A DNA stretch of 31,649 bases. Source: a virus. Position 1 is the stretch's first letter. Each line of letters begins with the position of its first letter. The DNA is taken from IMG/VR virus record IMGVR_UViG_3300025132_000170, positions 1 through 31,649 of that record. The stretch is one strand, 5' to 3'. The position numbers and the translations under genes are program-made. Positions 6,649-31,554 of this stretch are shown here, one piece after another. The notes beneath the pieces were generated by a model. It ran no database searches. It saw only the letters and a list, made by a program, of their open reading frames with translations, and was not told the DNA's origin.

Positions 6649-7238
6649 TAGGTTATGTCTGTAAGTTTAAACTCCGCATAGTAATTATTAGCAGATTCAT
6701 TAGATAAATTTTCACCATCAACATTAACAGATATGGGTGAACCCATTACATTGTGACCACCAACTTTAAAGTTTGGCATTGCATCCATAAGTTTTTTTAC
6801 ATCGCTTGTATTAAGACCTCTGCTTTTTATGGCTTCGTTACTTTTACGAAACTCCATATCTGACATAGCACCCGCACCTTTAACTCTAAAGTTAGGGACT
6901 GCCTCCATCTGTGTATCAAACCCTCTATTTCTTTGAGCTTTGGTGCCTGTTCTACGTCCTTGGTTTTTTCTAAGCTTTTCTTGCATTTTTGTGTCAAAAT
7001 ATGACTGACCAAATCTACGAAATTTGTCAGACTTTCTTTTTTGTCTTTCCTCTTCTATTTTAGTCATACCACCTACTCTAACAGGTTTAGGACCTTTAAA
7101 ATCTTTTCTTTTTACACCACTAGGGTCTTTAATTTTACCTGCACAAATTTTTGATGCATATGCGTTTGCATAAGCACTTGGGTATACCTTAAATTTAGCC
7201 TTAGCCGCTTTTTTGCCTCTTTCACATAATTTAGTCAT
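6648..7238 (-). CDS. Basic protein with YPSAYANAYASKIC motif
   Basis: The first 45 residues (LCERGKKAAKAKFKVYPSAY, ANAYASKICAGKIKDPSG) form a motif that recurs in cyanophages, marine phages and large DNA viruses, with Cys near positions 5 and 32. The remaining 150 residues are polar and carry two internal repeats, AVPNFRVKGAG and AMPNFKVGGHN, each about 40 residues apart. So this is a modular protein: a conserved basic head joined to a variable repeat tail. It overlaps the upstream oxygenase gene by 8 nt. Role unknown. Confidence 0.65.
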   Translation of the reverse strand: MTKLCERGKKAAKAKFKVYPSAYANAYASKICAGKIKDPSGVKRKDFKGPKPVRVGGMTKIEEERQKRKSDKFRRFGQSYFDTKMQEKLRKNQGRRTGTKAQRNRGFDTQMEAVPNFRVKGAGAMSDMEFRKSNEAIKSRGLNTSDVKKLMDAMPNFKVGGHNVMGSPISVNVDGENLSNESANNYYAEFKLTDIT

Positions 7239-7869
7239 TACTTACTTTACCATCCTTAAGAATATCAGTAAACCCTATCCAACCTGTCACAATATACTTT
7301 TCAGATGTATGTGTAACTTTACTTCTATGTAAGTGACTATTCCAAGCTGACCAAAATAAGGTAAGCCCTTTTATGGCAGGAACATAGAGTTGTTGGTTGG
7401 CAAACTCAGTGCCTCCATCAGCTATTGAATTTAAGTAAGTCATATAAACAAGATATCTATTGTTCTGAACTTTTGTTCCCACAAAACTATTTTCACAATG
7501 CCAATCTTTGTAGCCACCACCTTTTTTATAATACTGTATATTTATTTTTTCATATAAGCCAAATTTTTTTATATTGTTTAAATGTGGGTATTTTTTTAAA
7601 TATAATTTTAGACAATCACCTAATTCGGTAACATATTTTTTTCCGAGTTCTGAGTGTTCTGAAAGTCGGACATCTTCAGAATCCTTGATTTTTTTGTTAA
7701 TACGTTGCTTACCTCTATCATAAACAACACCTTTGATTTTTTCTGATTTTTTACAGAATTCTACAAGTTCATCACAAAGGTCATTATCAATAAAATAACC
7801 ACCAATAAGAGATGAGTGAGGAACAAGTAATTCATTTCTTTCTTTTTGAGGCACAATGAGCTCTTTCAC
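7231..7869 (-). CDS. 2-oxoglutarate/Fe(II)-dependent oxygenase, prolyl-4-hydroxylase-like
   Basis: The 212-residue protein has the core of the P4H-like dioxygenase fold. The first metal pair is H124-x-E126 (DWHCEN), where most family members have HxD. The distal histidine is H181 (SHLHRSK), and K191 lies exactly ten residues later, the spacing used for the 2-oxoglutarate carboxylate in prolyl hydroxylases. GGTEFANQ and IKGLTLFWSAWNSHLH are also family-typical. Likely reaction: hydroxylation of a protein or small substrate with O2 and 2-oxoglutarate. Substrate unknown; its position among structural genes suggests a virion or host surface target, which is inference. Confidence 0.8.
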   Translation of the reverse strand: MKELIVPQKERNELLVPHSSLIGGYFIDNDLCDELVEFCKKSEKIKGVVYDRGKQRINKKIKDSEDVRLSEHSELGKKYVTELGDCLKLYLKKYPHLNNIKKFGLYEKINIQYYKKGGGYKDWHCENSFVGTKVQNNRYLVYMTYLNSIADGGTEFANQQLYVPAIKGLTLFWSAWNSHLHRSKVTHTSEKYIVTGWIGFTDILKDGKVSND

Positions 7870-7981
7870 TAAAACCTTTTGGTTTCTTACAATTTATACT
7901 AGATTTTCTTTTTTTACTCCACTTCTTTTTTTGTGGAGGGTTTTCAATTTGTTTTCTTGTTTGTGATCTTGTTATTGGCAC
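7832..7981 (-). CDS. Small basic Cys protein, GTG start (49 aa)
   Basis: A GTG at 7981, overlapping the last codons of the M15 peptidase gene by 10 nt, opens a 49-residue frame ending at 7832 and overlapping the oxygenase start by 38 nt. It reads PITRSQTRKQIENPPQKKKW followed by a Lys/Arg stretch and SINCKKPKGFSERAHC. The C-x2-PKGFSE-x-AHC motif is a recurrent marine-phage micro-protein signature as I remember it, with two Cys and one His that could bind metal. An AGG lies 8 nt before the GTG. Without it this stretch would be a gap in an otherwise packed operon. Confidence 0.6.
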   Translation of the reverse strand: MPITRSQTRKQIENPPQKKKWSKKRKSSINCKKPKGFSERAHCASKRKK

Positions 7982-8433
7982 GGAATATACCTCGTTTTGC
8001 CATTTTGGTCTTTGTAAGCTTTTAAAAATTGTTTTCTGTTTTTTTCACTTGAATAAGAAACGTGAATCCATCCACTGTTAGGGTCTGACTCTTTGTAGAA
8101 CTCTAAAATAAGCTGATCAAAATCGTAGTTTTTATTTATATGTTCAGCTAATTTTTTATTATCTAACCCTTGAATTTCAAAATCTGCCGCCTCTCCTTTA
8201 CAATGTTGTGATTTAGCACTTGATCCTATTCTTTTTGAGAGTTCAACACTACGAAATCCAGAAGATATAGTCACAGGCATTTCAAAACGATCTCTTATTG
8301 GTTGTAATACTTTTTCACATAATTTTTTAAGACACAATATTTGTTGCTGATTAGGTTTGTTATTAATACCTAAACGAGTTGCAGTTTGTGACTTTGTCAT
8401 TTCTGATAATGTAAAATTAGGTGTTAGCTTCAT
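7972..8433 (-). CDS. Peptidase M15 (D-Ala-D-Ala carboxypeptidase-like) endolysin
   Basis: The 153-residue protein matches the single-domain M15A family. Residues 1-15 are the usual FTLSEM start. ISSGFRS (56-62) precedes the zinc ligands H77 and D84 (SQHCKGEAADFEI) and H124 (GWIHVSY), with E111 as the likely catalytic base (LILEFY). Such enzymes cut peptide cross-links of peptidoglycan during lysis. Cytoplasmic until released, since no signal peptide is seen. Two small membrane ORFs lie just upstream with overlaps, a lysis-cassette arrangement. Confidence 0.85.
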   Translation of the reverse strand: MKLTPNFTLSEMTKSQTATRLGINNKPNQQQILCLKKLCEKVLQPIRDRFEMPVTISSGFRSVELSKRIGSSAKSQHCKGEAADFEIQGLDNKKLAEHINKNYDFDQLILEFYKESDPNSGWIHVSYSSEKNRKQFLKAYKDQNGKTRYIPCQ

Positions 8434-14860: not shown

Positions 14861-15292
14861 CTAGAATAATGCGAGGATATCCCTCGGTTCGTTAATAGTG
14901 CCGATGATTTCATCGTCATTAAGAATACGATGTTCACCATATTTAGTTTTAAAACGAGCACCAGCGTATCGTCCATATATGACAAACTGACCCTCTTTAC
15001 ACCAAGCTCCAGATGGAAATTTTTGTTTATCTTTAAAACATAAATCACCCATTTTTACTACAAGTCCAACAACAGTTGTCATTTGAATAGTTTCTTGAGT
15101 TTTTTCTGATAGATAAATACCACCTTTAGTTTTTTCTTTAGGTTGATATGGTCTGACTAAAAGTCTATATCCAACAGGGTTTGGTATAATTTTAAGATAT
15201 TCTTCCGTTTCTTTTTCACCTTTCGGAACTAAAGGTTCTTCCTCATCATTTTGTGGAACGACAAGTTTTTTATTAGGTTTGATCAATGTCAT
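14861..15292 (-). CDS. groES: GroES-like co-chaperonin (Cpn10)
   Basis: The 143-residue protein has an about 38-residue N-terminal extension and then a Cpn10 domain: PNPVGYRLLVRPYQPKEKTK (start of the barrel), GGIYLSEKTQETIQM (mobile-loop region), VVGLVVKMGDLCFKDKQKFP, YGRYAGARFKTKYGEHRILN and DDEIIGTI. It would cap a host GroEL ring, as T4 gp31 does, to fold the capsid protein. Its place just upstream of scaffold and capsid genes supports that partner. No GroEL is in the window. The start overlaps the next upstream gene by 20 nt. Confidence 0.85.
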   Translation of the reverse strand: MTLIKPNKKLVVPQNDEEEPLVPKGEKETEEYLKIIPNPVGYRLLVRPYQPKEKTKGGIYLSEKTQETIQMTTVVGLVVKMGDLCFKDKQKFPSGAWCKEGQFVIYGRYAGARFKTKYGEHRILNDDEIIGTINEPRDILALF

Positions 15293-15597: not shown

Positions 15598-15688
15598 AAC
15601 AAACCACTGGTGACTTATACTCAAGCACCCTTATTTTTCTTGAAAATTTTTCACCACTGCAATCTTTAATTCTAAATATGTTTGACAA
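15536..15688 (-). CDS. Possible small protein with TTG start (50 aa)
   Basis: A frame with a protein-like composition runs to a stop at 15536: SNIFRIKDCSGEKFSRKIRV, then LEYKSPVVCYGKK and a polar end. No ATG is available; TTG at 15688 with GGGG 8 nt upstream is the best start. The frame is also open upstream to about 15745 (FGTYLKIDGVTNL), without a usual start codon. It could be a real non-ATG gene or the remnant of a longer one joined by frameshift to the 15672-15794 ORF. Confidence 0.35.
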   Translation of the reverse strand: MSNIFRIKDCSGEKFSRKIRVLEYKSPVVCYGKKISQNRNSNCKEDKKKI

Positions 15689-15794
15689 GTTTGTAACCCC
15701 ATCTATTTTCAGATAAGTCCCAAACCCTTTTTGTAGCAGAAGGTATTTTCACAATAAGATTATTAAATTTTATTAATTTTTTTGTTAATAACAT
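15672..15794 (-). CDS. Small protein behind the pqqA-like gene (40 aa)
   Basis: ATG at 15794 has a perfect AAGGAG with 6-nt spacing, one of the best ribosome-binding sites here. The 40-residue product reads MLLTKKLIKFNNLIVKIPSA, then TKRVWDLSENRWGYKLVKHI. It is basic with no membrane segment. It begins 17 nt after the hairpin that follows the pqqA-like gene. No similarity recognised. The good start signal argues that something is translated here. Confidence 0.45.
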   Translation of the reverse strand: MLLTKKLIKFNNLIVKIPSATKRVWDLSENRWGYKLVKHI

Positions 15795-15835: not shown

Positions 15836-15910
15836 TTATTTTTCAGCACAGGCATAGCTGTTGATTTCTAGACCAACAGAAATTTCTGTAATTATTGGTT
15901 TAGACCACAT
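15836..15910 (-). CDS. pqqA: PqqA-like peptide, pyrroloquinoline quinone precursor (24 aa)
   Basis: ATG at 15910 follows AAAGGAGATAATT, a near-ideal ribosome-binding site. The 24-residue product begins MWSKPIITEISVGLEI and continues N17, S18, Y19, ending at K24. It matches PqqA in length and in key positions: MWxKP at the start, G13, E15 and Y19 four residues later. In PqqA the radical SAM enzyme PqqE joins this Glu to this Tyr, and the pair becomes the PQQ cofactor; in Klebsiella PqqA they are also residues 15 and 19. No pqqB, C, D or E is in the window, so processing would need host enzymes. A stable hairpin follows the stop codon. Similarity is from memory of family sequences; function in the phage is inference. 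Confidence 0.8.
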   Translation of the reverse strand: MWSKPIITEISVGLEINSYACAEK

Positions 15911-15975
15911 AATTATCTCCTTTGTTAGAAGTGCTGGTTGTCATTGTGACCGCAGTCCACTACAGTCATTTTAAT

Positions 15976-23188: not shown

Positions 23189-23698
23189 TTATTTTTTCTC
23201 AGGAGTTACATCAATAATATTGGTAGAATCTGCAATTTTTGTTTCAAGCTCCTCTAACCTTTTTTCAAGTTGATCTCTTGTCATACCCTCTAATGTGCTG
23301 TGTGTAATTTCTTTTTTGTCTACGAACATTCCTGCCATCTGACCTGCTCTATATTCTGCATTAATAGCACCTGTATATTGACCTTTAATTTCTGCTCCGT
23401 TCCTCAATCTTTCAAATACTTTATATCTTTTTAATTTATCTTTTTCATACTTTTCTATTTCTTGTGACAATCTTTTTTCTAAATATCTACAGATATGAGG
23501 ACTTTGATCAGGGTTTGTTAGCCTACTTGCAAGAGCATATGGTTTACCTTCGTTACCCTCACTTGTATAACCTGCTTGCAAAGCGGCATCTGCCTTTGAT
23601 ATAGAACCCCAATTGGCTACCAATATGTCAACAAATTTCATTTGCTTCGGTGTCAACTCATTTGTTTTTTTTAATATGTTTGGTTTTCTTGGCATCAA
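23189..23698 (-). CDS. terS: Terminase small subunit
   Basis: The 169-residue protein fits Terminase_2-type small subunits. LTPKQMKFVDILVANWGSIS is followed by KADAALQAGYTSEGNEGKPY, a helix-turn-helix-like DNA-binding part (about residues 16-55). SRLTNPDQSPHICRYLEKRL comes next, then an oligomerisation region with REGMTRDQLEKRLEELE-type helix near residue 140. It would recognise phage DNA and present it to terL. Here terL is about 1.2 kb away, separated by four small genes. It overlaps the SET gene by 4 nt. Confidence 0.8.
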   Translation of the reverse strand: MMPRKPNILKKTNELTPKQMKFVDILVANWGSISKADAALQAGYTSEGNEGKPYALASRLTNPDQSPHICRYLEKRLSQEIEKYEKDKLKRYKVFERLRNGAEIKGQYTGAINAEYRAGQMAGMFVDKKEITHSTLEGMTRDQLEKRLEELETKIADSTNIIDVTPEKK

Positions 23699-24015
23699 TT
23701 ATCGTAATTTAATAATATTTCTTCATCTTTTTTTATTTTTTTTATTGTGACTATATTAAAAATAATGTAATCGTCCCAATTTTCTTTTATAAACAATTCA
23801 CAATTGTTATCTTCACTATGGTTTACAAAACCTCCGAGTGGCGTCCTAACATATCCATAAATCATAGGTACTTTTATATGACTAGAACCTAAATCCAATC
23901 CTTCTTCTAAATTATCCATCGCAAAAATTCCGTGTCCATCAATTTTACTCTCTGCAATCTTCAAATTATTAGGTAATGGATTGTAATAAAACCTATTCAT
24001 TTTCAAGTGTGTCAT
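23695..24015 (-). CDS. SET-domain protein (lysine methyltransferase-like)
   Basis: The 106-residue protein is a minimal SET domain: SKIDGHGIFAMDNLEEG (24-39) is the N-terminal part, GGFVNHSEDNNC (61-72) is the GxxxNHS SAM-binding and pseudoknot motif, and IKKDEEILLNYD (94-105) the C-terminal DExLxxYD part. SET proteins use S-adenosylmethionine to methylate lysines, in bacteria and phages on unknown proteins. No pre- or post-SET zinc sites are seen. Coupled to terS by a 4-nt overlap. Substrate unknown. Confidence 0.8.
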   Translation of the reverse strand: MTHLKMNRFYYNPLPNNLKIAESKIDGHGIFAMDNLEEGLDLGSSHIKVPMIYGYVRTPLGGFVNHSEDNNCELFIKENWDDYIIFNIVTIKKIKKDEEILLNYDN

Positions 24016-25769: not shown

Positions 25770-25964
25770 TTAGCACCAATACTTTATGTCATCGTTTAGA
25801 GTAGCTAAACCTGAACTGTTTATATTGTCTCGAGCATCATCCTTGTGCCCTGATCCGTGGCACGTGGTACAAGTCGTTGAATTATCCATAGCTGATAATT
25901 TTGTTTTGTCTAATTTTACATAGCCATTGCCTAAGCAATCTTCACAAATTAAAAATGTTTTCAT
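25770..25964 (-). CDS. Orphan DnaJ-type zinc finger protein
   Basis: The 64-residue protein holds two CxxCxGxG motifs: CEDCLGNG (7-14) and CTTCHGSG (32-39), one zinc-binding pair of the DnaJ central domain, with no J domain. Phages often carry such mini-domains, sometimes fused to DNA polymerase. It could bind unfolded protein or act as a redox or protein-interaction module. Its start overlaps the end of the methyltransferase gene by 4 nt. Confidence 0.75.
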   Translation of the reverse strand: MKTFLICEDCLGNGYVKLDKTKLSAMDNSTTCTTCHGSGHKDDARDNINSSGLATLNDDIKYWC

Positions 25965-27256
25965 TTATTCTCCTCTGCCACAATTATTGATTTAAAAAGT
26001 TGATAGGCAATCTGTGGCACGATTGAATTACCTAACGACTTTATTCTTCCGACTCTATCTTTGTCCAGTTCATAGGATACCCCATTAGGAACTCCACAAA
26101 GGTTGGATTCAGTCTCCCACCAACTTTGGGTGGGTTTTTCTCCTGCATTAAGTCCCCCACTATTGAGTCTCTGTTCTTCTGACTTTTGGGAAAGCTGGTG
26201 TTCTTCCAATCGCTGGTCGTGGGAGTATTGTATATTTTTTTGATCTTGTCTGGGTTGAATACTGCGGCTGTCAAATTGTTCTGACGATTCTCTCGCCATC
26301 TTTTCGTTGCTTTGTTTGAATCTTGAGTTGTAGGAGTTGGATATAACCCAACGCCAGTATTTATTTTTTCCTCCCTCTGAACTGCGTGCCGAAGAGCATA
26401 ATGCAGATTGATCCCCTTTTTTTTCTTTTCCTCTGCTCTCTTCTCCCAATTCTCTATGTCCTCTGTTGGACTTGTCATTCCATCGTTGGTGTTGGGTGTC
26501 GGATACATTAATGTCGCTACTGTTTCCTCCAGTTTTGCTCCTAATTTTCCTCTGTTGTCCACTCTCTTTTTTACTGTTTTTAAGTTTTCGGTCATTGCAG
26601 ATGAGGCTCTCGGTGTCGGATACAACTTTATCGCTCTGTTTAATGTCATCTGAAGGTGTTTGCCTGTCTTTGGATTGTAAGCTCTCTCGTTTGGCTTCAG
26701 TGGTAATCCATCCTTGTTTGTTAATGTTTCCACTATTTTCTCTCCTGCCTCTTGTGCCGATGGAGTTGGATACATTGTGTCCGATAATCCAGACTCTTTT
26801 TCTTTGATGCCAACCACCGATGCCTGAAGCTGGAATAACAAGACATTGGACTTGGAAACCCTCGGCTTCCAGGTCATCTTGCACCTGTCTGAGCACCAAG
26901 CCGTTTTGGATGTTAACAAGTCCGTCAACATTTTCTCCAATAAACCACCTCGGTTTGAATTCGGCAACGACTCTAATAGTTTCATCCCAGAGATATCTAT
27001 CGTCATCTCTTCCTTTTTGCTTGCCTGCAACGGAGAAAGGCTGACAGGGGAATCCTCCTGAAATAATGTCAACTGCTTCAAATGTATCTCTTTTAACATC
27101 TCTAATATCTCCTATTATCGGAATGCCTGGAAAATTTTTTTGTAACACTTTGTGACAAAATTTATCTTTCTCCACAAACCCTATTGTTTCAATATTATTA
27201 TATTCTGCCGCTAAAGAAAAGCCACCAATACCAGAAAAAAGGTCAAGCAGTTTCAT
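25961..27256 (-). CDS. dcm: DNA cytosine-5 methyltransferase
   Basis: The 431-residue protein has the m5C motifs in order: I DLFSGIGGFS (5-14), IV GGFPCQPFSVAG with catalytic C71 (67-78), VI ENV (108-110), VIII QRKRVW (151-156) and X GNSIVPQIAYQLF (409-421). Between VIII and X lies a long, low-complexity, polar target-recognition region (about 165-385) with repeated VSDT / VSNS / ISNS segments. It would methylate cytosine in phage DNA, probably against restriction; site unknown. Nearly all of residues 53-405 is also read in the +1 frame as a second gene. The start overlaps the stop of the next gene (TAATG). Confidence 0.92.
   Translation of the reverse strand: MKLLDLFSGIGGFSLAAEYNNIETIGFVEKDKFCHKVLQKNFPGIPIIGDIRDVKRDTFEAVDIISGGFPCQPFSVAGKQKGRDDDRYLWDETIRVVAEFKPRWFIGENVDGLVNIQNGLVLRQVQDDLEAEGFQVQCLVIPASGIGGWHQRKRVWIIGHNVSNSIGTRGRRENSGNINKQGWITTEAKRESLQSKDRQTPSDDIKQSDKVVSDTESLICNDRKLKNSKKESGQQRKIRSKTGGNSSDINVSDTQHQRWNDKSNRGHRELGEESRGKEKKGDQSALCSSARSSEGGKNKYWRWVISNSYNSRFKQSNEKMARESSEQFDSRSIQPRQDQKNIQYSHDQRLEEHQLSQKSEEQRLNSGGLNAGEKPTQSWWETESNLCGVPNGVSYELDKDRVGRIKSLGNSIVPQIAYQLFKSIIVAEENK
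26041..27099 (-). CDS. 352-aa protein embedded in the dcm gene (+1 frame), YPTP repeats
   Basis: This frame is open from an ATG at 27099 to 26041, wholly inside dcm on the same strand. The product starts MLKEIHLKQLTLFQEDSPVS and has MTWKPRVSKSNVLLFQLQAS. Five repeats follow: MYPTPSAQEAG, LYPTPRASSAM, MYPTPNTNDGM, LYPTPTTQDSN and YNTPTTSDWKN. It ends GGRLNPTFVEFLMGYPMNWT. I recognise PTPxAxD repeats followed by LNPxFVExLMGxPxxWT as a separate conserved protein linked to phage cytosine methyltransferases. Each YPTP in this frame reads as VSDT, VSNS or ISNS in dcm. Probably assists or modifies methylation; function unknown. No Shine-Dalgarno stands out. Confidence 0.72.
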   Translation of the reverse strand: MLKEIHLKQLTLFQEDSPVSLSPLQASKKEEMTIDISGMKLLESLPNSNRGGLLEKMLTDLLTSKTAWCSDRCKMTWKPRVSKSNVLLFQLQASVVGIKEKESGLSDTMYPTPSAQEAGEKIVETLTNKDGLPLKPNERAYNPKTGKHLQMTLNRAIKLYPTPRASSAMTENLKTVKKRVDNRGKLGAKLEETVATLMYPTPNTNDGMTSPTEDIENWEKRAEEKKKKGINLHYALRHAVQREEKINTGVGLYPTPTTQDSNKATKRWRENRQNNLTAAVFNPDKIKKIYNTPTTSDWKNTSFPKSQKNRDSIVGDLMQEKNPPKVGGRLNPTFVEFLMGYPMNWTKIESEE

Positions 27257-28990: not shown

Positions 28991-30854
28991 CCTCACCGAA
29001 ATCTTTTCCCAAGGCTATATCTACTTTATTGGGAACTTTCAGTTCTACGGCACTCTCCATCACACTTTTTATTTTATCAACATCTTTATCATCACTAACT
29101 GAGAAACATAATTCATCGTGTATTTGTATTAATGGTAAAAACCCATTGTCATAACAATCAAGAATTGCTTTCTTAGTTTGATCTGCGGCACTACCTTGAA
29201 TTAATCTGTTCAATGCTTTGTATGTAAATGCTCTTTTTATATTAGATGCACCATATTTAGCTGAAGCATTCTCAAAAGTTTCAGGAGTGTGAATGCCAAA
29301 ATCTTTAGTTTCCCACATATCAAATCTACATTTTCTACCAAGCTTAGTTCTAATTGTCCCCTCATTGTTAGCTTTATTCATACAACGATCAGATAACAAT
29401 TTCACAAATGGAGCTTTTCTGTTAAATTTAGAAATTAGTTCACTTGCTTCTTCAAAAGCTAAACCAAGCATATTAGCTAATTTATTTTTTCCCATACCAT
29501 ACATTAATCCTAAACCGATTGTTTTTGCTTGCTTACGATCTATACCAACTAAATCAGCAACTGTTTGATGAAAGTCGGCATCGGCTTTTGCATAAGCTTC
29601 AACTAATTCTTGAGAACCTTCATAACCCTCACCGATACTTGAGGCATAGTGAACCACGAGCCGTGGTTCTTGTTGCGAGTAATCAAAGCTACCCCATTTT
29701 TCACCCTCTTCAGGCAGAAACAAACCTCTTATTAATGGTCCAAATTCTTTATTTCTAGCAGGCAGTTGTTGTAAGTTAGGACTAGACATACTAAGCCTAC
29801 CACTTACTGTACCTCCGTTATCGGATCGTAATTGATTTATCTCTCCGTGAACTCTACCTTTGTGTTCAAATCGCATTATTGAATTAAGAAAAGTATTATG
29901 AAATTTATTGACCTCTCTAGCCTTTACTATAAGTTGTGAAATTTTTTCATTTGAGTTTACTAACCAGTTTTGTGTAAAACTTGGCTCATTACTTTTTGCA
30001 GTTTTCGGATATTCAATTCCTAGTTTATCAAAAGCAAAAGCTATTTGCCTAGCCGCCCATATATCTATGTCTTTACCGACCAACTTTTTTATGTTTAACA
30101 AAATTTGTTTTTCTTTTTGTAAGAAATTTTTTTTTAGAATTTCTGCTTTTTCTATGTCAACTCTTATGCCTTTCATTCGCATTTCTATAAGTATTGGTAA
30201 AAGTTTTTTTTCTAACTCCCATATTGTTTCTAAATTTTGCTGATGTATTTCGTGTTTAAATCTTTGCCAAAGAAGGTAAGTGAGTCTTGCATCTTGCTCT
30301 GCATAAAATCCAACGTGTTCAGCAGGTAACTTCCACATTTCTTTTTTAGGGTCAACTCCGTGAGCTTTAGCGGCTTCATTTAAATCAGTTTCGGCTTTGA
30401 GTTCACCAATATAATCACGAGCCAGAGCATTCAATTTATATGTATACCTATTCTCATCAATTAATGCACCTGCTATCATTGTGTCAACGATCTCACCTTT
30501 TACATCTATTCCATAGGCTTTTAACCAGCCGACATCATATTGAGCATTATGAAAAATTTTACGACAAGGCAAAGCACATACATCTTTGATATACTTTAAT
30601 ACCTGCTCTTTTATTAGATTACCACCACCAAAATGAGCAAAAGGATAATAACCCTCCCAACCCTCAGTAGCTACAGCGAAACCAATTATCTCTCCTTTGT
30701 TTGTTGCCCATCCTGCCCCTAAACCTTCATTAATGCCATCGTCTTTAGTTTCTAGATCAATAGCTATCTCTTCGGCATAAGATAAATCTTTATACTCACT
30801 TGGTGCTGACCAAATATGTTTTTTAAAATTAAATGTTAATTGTAAACTAGTCAC
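28983..30854 (-). CDS. polA: DNA polymerase I family (PolA) with 3'-5' exonuclease
   Basis: The 623-residue protein has the proofreading exonuclease motifs D33-L-E35 (IAIDLET), HNAQYD (102-107) and Y184-x3-D188 (YAEQDA). The polymerase has motif A SFDYSQQEPR (D391), motif B RKQAKTIGLGLMYG (K444, Y452) and motif C IHDE (D580, E581). The residue equivalent to E. coli Phe762 is Leu448, a variant that environmental surveys link with slower or temperate lifestyles. No 5'-3' exonuclease domain. It replicates the phage genome; primase and helicase must lie outside the window. Overlaps the next upstream gene by 8 nt. Confidence 0.95.
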   Translation of the reverse strand: MTSLQLTFNFKKHIWSAPSEYKDLSYAEEIAIDLETKDDGINEGLGAGWATNKGEIIGFAVATEGWEGYYPFAHFGGGNLIKEQVLKYIKDVCALPCRKIFHNAQYDVGWLKAYGIDVKGEIVDTMIAGALIDENRYTYKLNALARDYIGELKAETDLNEAAKAHGVDPKKEMWKLPAEHVGFYAEQDARLTYLLWQRFKHEIHQQNLETIWELEKKLLPILIEMRMKGIRVDIEKAEILKKNFLQKEKQILLNIKKLVGKDIDIWAARQIAFAFDKLGIEYPKTAKSNEPSFTQNWLVNSNEKISQLIVKAREVNKFHNTFLNSIMRFEHKGRVHGEINQLRSDNGGTVSGRLSMSSPNLQQLPARNKEFGPLIRGLFLPEEGEKWGSFDYSQQEPRLVVHYASSIGEGYEGSQELVEAYAKADADFHQTVADLVGIDRKQAKTIGLGLMYGMGKNKLANMLGLAFEEASELISKFNRKAPFVKLLSDRCMNKANNEGTIRTKLGRKCRFDMWETKDFGIHTPETFENASAKYGASNIKRAFTYKALNRLIQGSAADQTKKAILDCYDNGFLPLIQIHDELCFSVSDDKDVDKIKSVMESAVELKVPNKVDIALGKDFGEAI

Positions 30855-31554
30855 TTGTTTTTATTTCACCTGTAGATGTAAGAATAGGCTGATTAGGATC
30901 AGTAGTTGGTTCTGGTAGCATAAATTCTGTTTTACCAACAAAAAATAAATTACCTGAAACAGTAATTCTCTCTTCATCTATTTCATAATAAGGATATACT
31001 GTGTGACACAAATTTGCAGGGAAAATATAACCTGATCCCTCATAAGTTTTATCAACAAGTTTTGTTGCTGAACGTATGTCATTATCTTGACCCATATGAA
31101 TAAAATCTAAAGCACCTGCAGAGATGGAATTAGATTCTGCACCTGGACTAATCTTTGCCTGATCTTCAAAAATAAAAGGAACTTGCACAAATATTACAAA
31201 TGAAAATACACCAAAATGTTTATGCACTGGGTTAAATTCGTGTTTTTTCATAAAGTTAACCCACAAGTTAGCTAAATATAAAGCGACAGGAGTTTGTCTT
31301 TGTACTGCTTTTATTTTTTGTCTTTGCACATAATCACGCAAATCTTGTTTTTCAAATATAAAATTATCTAAAAATTTATACAACTCTGGAAAATTAGGGT
31401 CTAAAACATATTCATCTCTTATGTTACCAGCTAGATGCATATTCCACTTCAATTGTTTATTTGTCCGATCTACTTGAGATATTCTTAATTTAAGTTCATC
31501 AAAAATTTGTGCGGGTAATGTAAACTTTTTCAGATATGGATATTCATTACTCAT
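30847..31554 (-). CDS. 2OG-Fe(II) oxygenase-like protein (2OG-FeII_Oxy_5 type)
   Basis: The 235-residue protein shows the pattern of this family: LWVNFMKKHEFNPVHKHFGV (97-116) with H111 and H113, then SFVIFVQVPF, and the distal part YIFPANLCHTVYPYYEIDEE with H184 and R196 (RITVSGN), which would bind iron and 2-oxoglutarate. The H-x-H pair in place of H-x-D is common in this group as I recall. Likely hydroxylates an unknown substrate. Its start overlaps the preceding gene, and the polymerase follows with an 8-nt overlap. Confidence 0.72.
   Translation of the reverse strand: MSNEYPYLKKFTLPAQIFDELKLRISQVDRTNKQLKWNMHLAGNIRDEYVLDPNFPELYKFLDNFIFEKQDLRDYVQRQKIKAVQRQTPVALYLANLWVNFMKKHEFNPVHKHFGVFSFVIFVQVPFIFEDQAKISPGAESNSISAGALDFIHMGQDNDIRSATKLVDKTYEGSGYIFPANLCHTVYPYYEIDEERITVSGNLFFVGKTEFMLPEPTTDPNQPILTSTGEIKTSD

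Follow-up and report, generated by a model that had tools for sequence, protein, structure and literature searches.

The stretch of DNA analysed here (the window) corresponds to a virus record of 31.6 kb, and its minus strand carries a short ORF encoding a PQQ precursor peptide, within a late module and upstream of the GroES and capsid genes. The features of this locus are the following:

15836..15910, minus strand (start 15910, stop 15836): pqqA, 24 codons, PQQ precursor peptide MWSKPIITEISVGLEINSYACAEK, assigned by family models, synteny and selection
15911..15932, minus strand: upstream region of pqqA with the Shine-Dalgarno motif AAAGGAG and the ATG 6 bases further; a GGAG-type site is found in all related phage copies
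15976..16344, minus strand: small protein of phrog_2524, encoded immediately upstream of pqqA and bounding the slot on that side (annotation, synteny)
15672..15794, minus strand: conserved 40-aa ORF (MLLTKKLIKFNN...), which borders the slot downstream and whose homologue follows phrog_2524 without pqqA in the relative L026 (comparison of relatives)
14861..15292, minus strand: phage GroES (Cpn10), same module, downstream of pqqA (domain match)

A preliminary description of this DNA had placed at 15836-15910 a 24-codon PqqA-like ORF with an excellent ribosome-binding site, and both points are borne out, with the precision that the strand is the minus one: the 5' sequence reads acttctaacAAAGGAGataatt-ATG and AAAGGAG stands six bases ahead of the start codon. 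The agreement in length and MWxKP start on which kinship with PqqA had been argued extends to two curated models, both matched over their full length. Indeed, when the profile searches proposed at that time were run, the peptide scored 39.1 bits against the equivalog TIGR02107 (cut-off 20, E 4.6e-10, profile positions 1-21 of 21) and 33.3 bits against PF08042 (cut-off 21.1), and a PF08042 search across the whole window returned a single location, this ORF. PqqA peptides contain a Glu and a Tyr with three residues between them, the pair that PqqE cross-links; Glu15 and Tyr19 were correctly recognised at these positions, with Gly13 before them, and they are present in the window as in all 21 phage copies described below. 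It had also been remarked that pqqA is not beside pqqB-E, and the window indeed holds none of these genes. The window pqqA thus lies outside the usual pqq operon, a location which is a habit and not a strict criterion, since cellular orphan pqqA copies also exist. As relatives found through their portal protein carry the same peptide in the same place under strong purifying selection, the ORF is not a chance one and, judged on its sequence, is a true phage-borne member of the PqqA family.

The closest known phage is Pelagibacter phage HTVC023P (TerL 74%, portal 66% and DNA polymerase 71% identity), and the TerL, portal, DNA polymerase, GroES and capsid matches occur in order, the head and replication genes being collinear. 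By these matches, the window is part of an HTVC023P-group pelagiphage and, the HTVC023P genome measuring 60.9 kb, it probably holds about half of the phage genome. The "late head/lysis operon" of the preliminary description stands for the head module and is only approximate for lysis, the endolysin lying further off at 8433..7972.

Several other genes of the window deserve mention. The GroES co-chaperonin (14861-15292) is conserved beside pqqA and is also present in HTVC023P, HTVC027P and DSL-LC04. A gene for a C5 cytosine DNA methylase (PF00145, 178.9 bits) is overlapped over most of its length by a 352-aa ORF in another frame, in which YPTP motifs recur and to which no Pfam family corresponds; the pair lies at 25961-27256 and 26041-27099, both on the minus strand, and both ORFs look protein-like. 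The window also contains two distinct 2OG-Fe(II) oxygenase genes (PF13640 and PF13759, at 7231-7869 and 30847-31554) and a gene for a small SET-domain protein (PF00856, 33.9 bits, 23695-24015).

Conservation and occurrence of pqqA among phages

Relatives were collected through the portal protein rather than the peptide, as a precaution against bias, and also through a degenerate DNA pattern. pqqA occupies the same slot in 15 portal-found IMG/VR stretches. Considering only relatives in which the slot is covered, it is present in all those with a portal identity of at least about 79%, in three of the seven with 70-73% (present in L028, L029 and L041, absent from L026, L034, L037 and L038) and in none of the others, HTVC023P included. 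Both slot neighbours are there in L026 and pqqA is cleanly missing. Its absence from HTVC023P and from some closer relatives makes pqqA an accessory gene. The same variable region of L026 (13700-15040) contains a different pair of accessory genes, which by eye resemble a glycosyltransferase and a sulfotransferase gene.

Selection was assessed on the window copy together with 20 more (21 in all), of which a few came from pattern scans. None is broken (0/21), Glu15 and Tyr19 are invariant with both codons varying silently, and the protein varies at positions 6 and 8 only. The preliminary description had expected an unbroken ORF and an unchanged Glu15/Tyr19 pair in related phages if its reading held, and this is what the copies display. 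For the 9 distinct DNA sequences, pN is 0.017 and pS 0.277, giving a pN/pS of ~0.06, a large contrast although the summed pairwise values are not independent. The gene therefore has the attributes of a phage auxiliary metabolic gene, being of a host metabolic type, located in a true phage genome and under selection.

A scan of IMG/VR with the degenerate DNA pattern (MWxKP...E[VI]xxY) yielded at least 120 contig stretches, with a few contigs recurring among the portal matches. A PqqA-like ORF was found in 118 of these, 13 belonging to the alphaproteobacterial type of the window and 105 to a second type, and phage genes were recognisable in 71 of the 120 listed stretches by matches to markers from no more than seven reference phages. 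Among the matches listed, pqqB, pqqC, pqqE and xoxF were found in none of the fetched stretches (0/120). In whole viral records, where absence is counted by contig, PqqE above the cut-off was found in none of 50 pqqA-bearing records and PQQ alcohol dehydrogenase in none of 36. Because many unrelated aquatic viruses carry pqqA without the rest of the pathway, supplying the peptide alone seems to be a frequent strategy of viruses that has gone unnoticed.

A megablast of the window gave no match, nor did a tblastn of its peptide against phage records; only the second peptide type reached phages of methylotrophs, with 12 matches by tblastn against 50,697 phage records. Nine of these are phages of Methylophilales/Methylophilaceae (Venkman, P19250A, MEP301, MEP401, MEP402 and four Melnitz records), a tenth is a phage from a spring metagenome and the remaining two belong to the entry "Acinetobacter phage MD-2021a". 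The latter was excluded, as the opened record (CAKLQF020000010.1, L380) turned out to be chromosomal DNA of a bacterium, carrying pqqBCDE, mod and ppk. pqqA is unannotated in Venkman, P19250A, MEP301, MEP401 and MEP402, and in Melnitz it is covered by a "hypothetical" on the opposite strand. Each methylotroph phage peptide tested passes TIGR02107, and a purine-rich site (aaggagg in Melnitz) precedes the ATG. The papers covered on these phages make no mention of pqq genes. OM43 methylotrophs depend on XoxF, often their top-transcribed gene (PMC5120137).

Cellular relatives and candidate host

Cellular genomes, one per species, were scanned with the core of the window-type peptide, and many alphaproteobacterial PqqA were among the matches listed. 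Among these, the nearest peptide is MAWTKPMISEISVGLEINSYACAEK with its variants, whose last 16 residues are identical to those of phage PqqA. It is encoded by ~1.3 Mb genomes of uncultured marine alphaproteobacteria of single-cell and metagenome origin (AG-911-L17, AG-404-M02, AG-901-J22, AG-896-A16, TMED13, MED657 and others). In most of them, pqqABCD share a locus with a full pqqE and a full PQQ alcohol dehydrogenase that looks like XoxF, each present once, and most also have additional orphan pqqA copies elsewhere. In the genus of AG-911-L17, pqqA is found in 13/13 genomes, with at least two copies in 11 of them, so that the candidate cells also multiply the peptide gene alone. As a side observation, genomes of this kind (G001-G011, loci L356-L373) have up to five near-identical pqqA, mostly dispersed and next to housekeeping genes, for only one full pqqE, and an orphan cellular pqqA in which GLE is changed to ALE (MAWTKPTISEISVALEINSYACAEK) was seen in L252 and in L356 (at 7307, minus strand).

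Considering their nearest peptide, their xoxF-pqqABCDE locus and their extra pqqA copies, these ~1.3 Mb alphaproteobacteria are the leading candidates for the host or for the origin of the gene, and the host of the window phage is probably an uncultured marine member of this kind with xoxF and several pqqA. The preliminary description had asked whether likely hosts lack pqq genes; those in which the nearest PqqA occurs possess the whole pqqABCDE set as well as xoxF. Composition gives this link weak support, and the terminase of the window phage was found in none of the candidate host genomes. The only genome positive in that search, the MAG "Maricaulis sp. isolate IN14" (G013), was rejected as a host: it is a mixed bin, as indicated by its many related phage terminases and by the position of its pqqA on a phage contig (L224). 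This MAG contains several different HTVC023P-like phage contigs, e.g. L224 and L381-L386. As a lead only, the candidate host genus may be akin to "Clade X", an unplaced alphaproteobacterial clade to which the surface ocean's most abundantly expressed xoxF5 has been ascribed (PMC11996626).

Proposed role of the phage peptide and comparison with known systems

XoxF methanol dehydrogenases require PQQ, and the PqqE/PqqD pathway consumes one PqqA per PQQ. Since one peptide is used each time, encoding nothing but the peptide is the cheapest means of raising the PQQ supply, or of keeping it up, as host transcription declines. We propose, with a probability of roughly 0.78, that the phage supplies substrate peptide to host PqqD/PqqE and thereby sustains PQQ for an XoxF-type methanol dehydrogenase; in this proposal we infer the expression and processing of the peptide, the increase in PQQ, the fitness benefit and the host. 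Briefly, extra PqqA would be made during infection along with the late proteins, host PqqD would bind it and the radical SAM enzyme PqqE would cross-link Glu15 to Tyr19, after which host proteases, PqqB and PqqC would complete PQQ. The latter would load the periplasmic methanol/alcohol dehydrogenase (XoxF type), and electrons and C1 units would flow until lysis. A phage shutting down host transcription while still requiring energy from the oxidation of methanol or alcohol would in this way top up the component that is consumed and leave the enzymes to the host. The proposal draws on family membership, conservation, selection, the absence of other pqq genes from the phage contigs and carriage by isolated phages whose methylotroph hosts depend on PQQ.

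More broadly, we lean towards the view that feeding a ribosomal-peptide cofactor pathway with its substrate peptide alone is widespread among phages: a solo pqqA would have been acquired many times over by different phages of aquatic bacteria that depend on PQQ, may keep methanol dehydrogenase charged with its cofactor in the infected cell, and would have escaped annotators because the gene has only 23-25 codons. In Acetobacter, overexpression of pqqAB raised PQQ by 29% and, as cited in the same source, pqqA alone raises PQQ in Gluconobacter (PMC7936290). The full pqq operon gave an eightfold PQQ, compared with the modest rise obtained with pqqAB only (PMC7936290), which implies that the enzymes can also be limiting.

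Selection for a complete, cross-linkable peptide makes three other readings less likely. Short peptides can serve as competitive ligands, and the phage product could be a decoy which occupies PqqD/PqqE or the protease and lowers host PQQ, for example so as to redirect metabolism. Such a decoy should need neither an intact Glu/Tyr pair nor a tail of full length. In fact Glu15, Tyr19 and YACAEK, the tail sequence, are strongly selected and match the cellular peptide, and the candidate hosts themselves carry extra near-identical pqqA; we consider this reading unlikely. PqqA is also one among many RiPP precursors modified by radical SAM enzymes, so that the peptide might be the substrate of another phage- or host-encoded enzyme, with a product other than PQQ. 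The equivalog-level match, the lack of any PqqE-like gene above the cut-off in the 50 pqqA-bearing viral records and the final 16 residues identical to pqqABCDE-linked cellular PqqA make this very improbable.

The dispersed orphan pqqA of the candidate host genomes offer a capturable source and carriage among the relatives is patchy, as would suit a host gene captured by chance and carried without benefit. Against such a neutral passenger, which appears very unlikely, stand the pN/pS of ~0.06, the 21 unbroken copies, the maintained ribosome-binding site and the spread of pqqA over several phage groups that are not related to one another, every isolated one among them infecting PQQ-using methylotrophs. 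Finally, host DNA mis-sorted into viral contigs does occur, as in the bacterial "Acinetobacter phage MD-2021a" with its pqqBCDE, but it has a negligible probability as a general explanation: it is refuted for the window, whose pqqA lies between phage head genes as in the 15 portal-found contigs, and for the isolates, whose complete genomes contain the gene.

We therefore retain the feeding of host PQQ synthesis, already suggested in the preliminary description, as the preferred reading. Several points nevertheless weigh against it: the closest isolated relative, HTVC023P, obtained on Pelagibacter HTCC1062, has no pqqA, the host link is drawn from peptide similarity, with weak support from composition and no phage terminase in the candidate host genomes, and the PQQ gain from pqqAB only was modest, as noted above.

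The preliminary description knew of no described phage pqqA, a statement which does not survive comparison with the literature. PqqA was annotated in 2020 in the T4-like Lake Baikal phage VP_266 (PMC7678222), viral pqqA, pqqE and pqqD were listed in 2026 from reservoir sediments (PMC13188868), and isolated methylotroph phages hold unannotated copies. As a kind of gene, phage pqqA is therefore not new; in the searched open-access literature, the pattern of a solo pqqA in many lineages appears unreported. As far as this literature shows, the novelty lies in the pqqA of an HTVC023P-group phage with an alphaproteobacterial peptide, in the evidence of selection and in the overlooked pqqA of isolated methylotroph phages with laboratory hosts.

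In the surface ocean, the genes for XoxF methanol dehydrogenases rank with the most highly transcribed (PMC11996626, PMC5120137). If phages supply the PQQ precursor, marine C1 oxidation would be influenced through a 75-base gene skipped by gene callers. Phage pqqA also bears on whether substrate or enzymes limit PQQ synthesis in streamlined methylotrophs, and the feeding idea is directly testable since isolated phage-host pairs (Venkman, Melnitz, MEP301 and P19250A) carry the gene.

Compared with known systems, the window peptide shares with PqqA (TIGR02107, PF08042) its length, MWxKP start, Gly13, Glu15 and Tyr19, and differs in being phage-encoded and solitary, without adjacent pqqBCDE. HTVC023P belongs to the same phage group, whereas its matching slot is devoid of pqqA. 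The orphan pqqA of the ~1.3 Mb marine alphaproteobacteria (AG-911-L17, TMED13) also stand alone and encode nearly the same peptide, but they are chromosomal, start with MAWTKP and reside in cells with xoxF and pqqABCDE. Lake Baikal VP_266 (PMC7678222) is likewise a case of phage pqqA, in phages of methylotrophs and with a proposed role in methanol oxidation; its phage populations also have methanol dehydrogenase, whereas the window has pqqA alone, in an unrelated pelagiphage-like lineage and with a peptide of alphaproteobacterial type.
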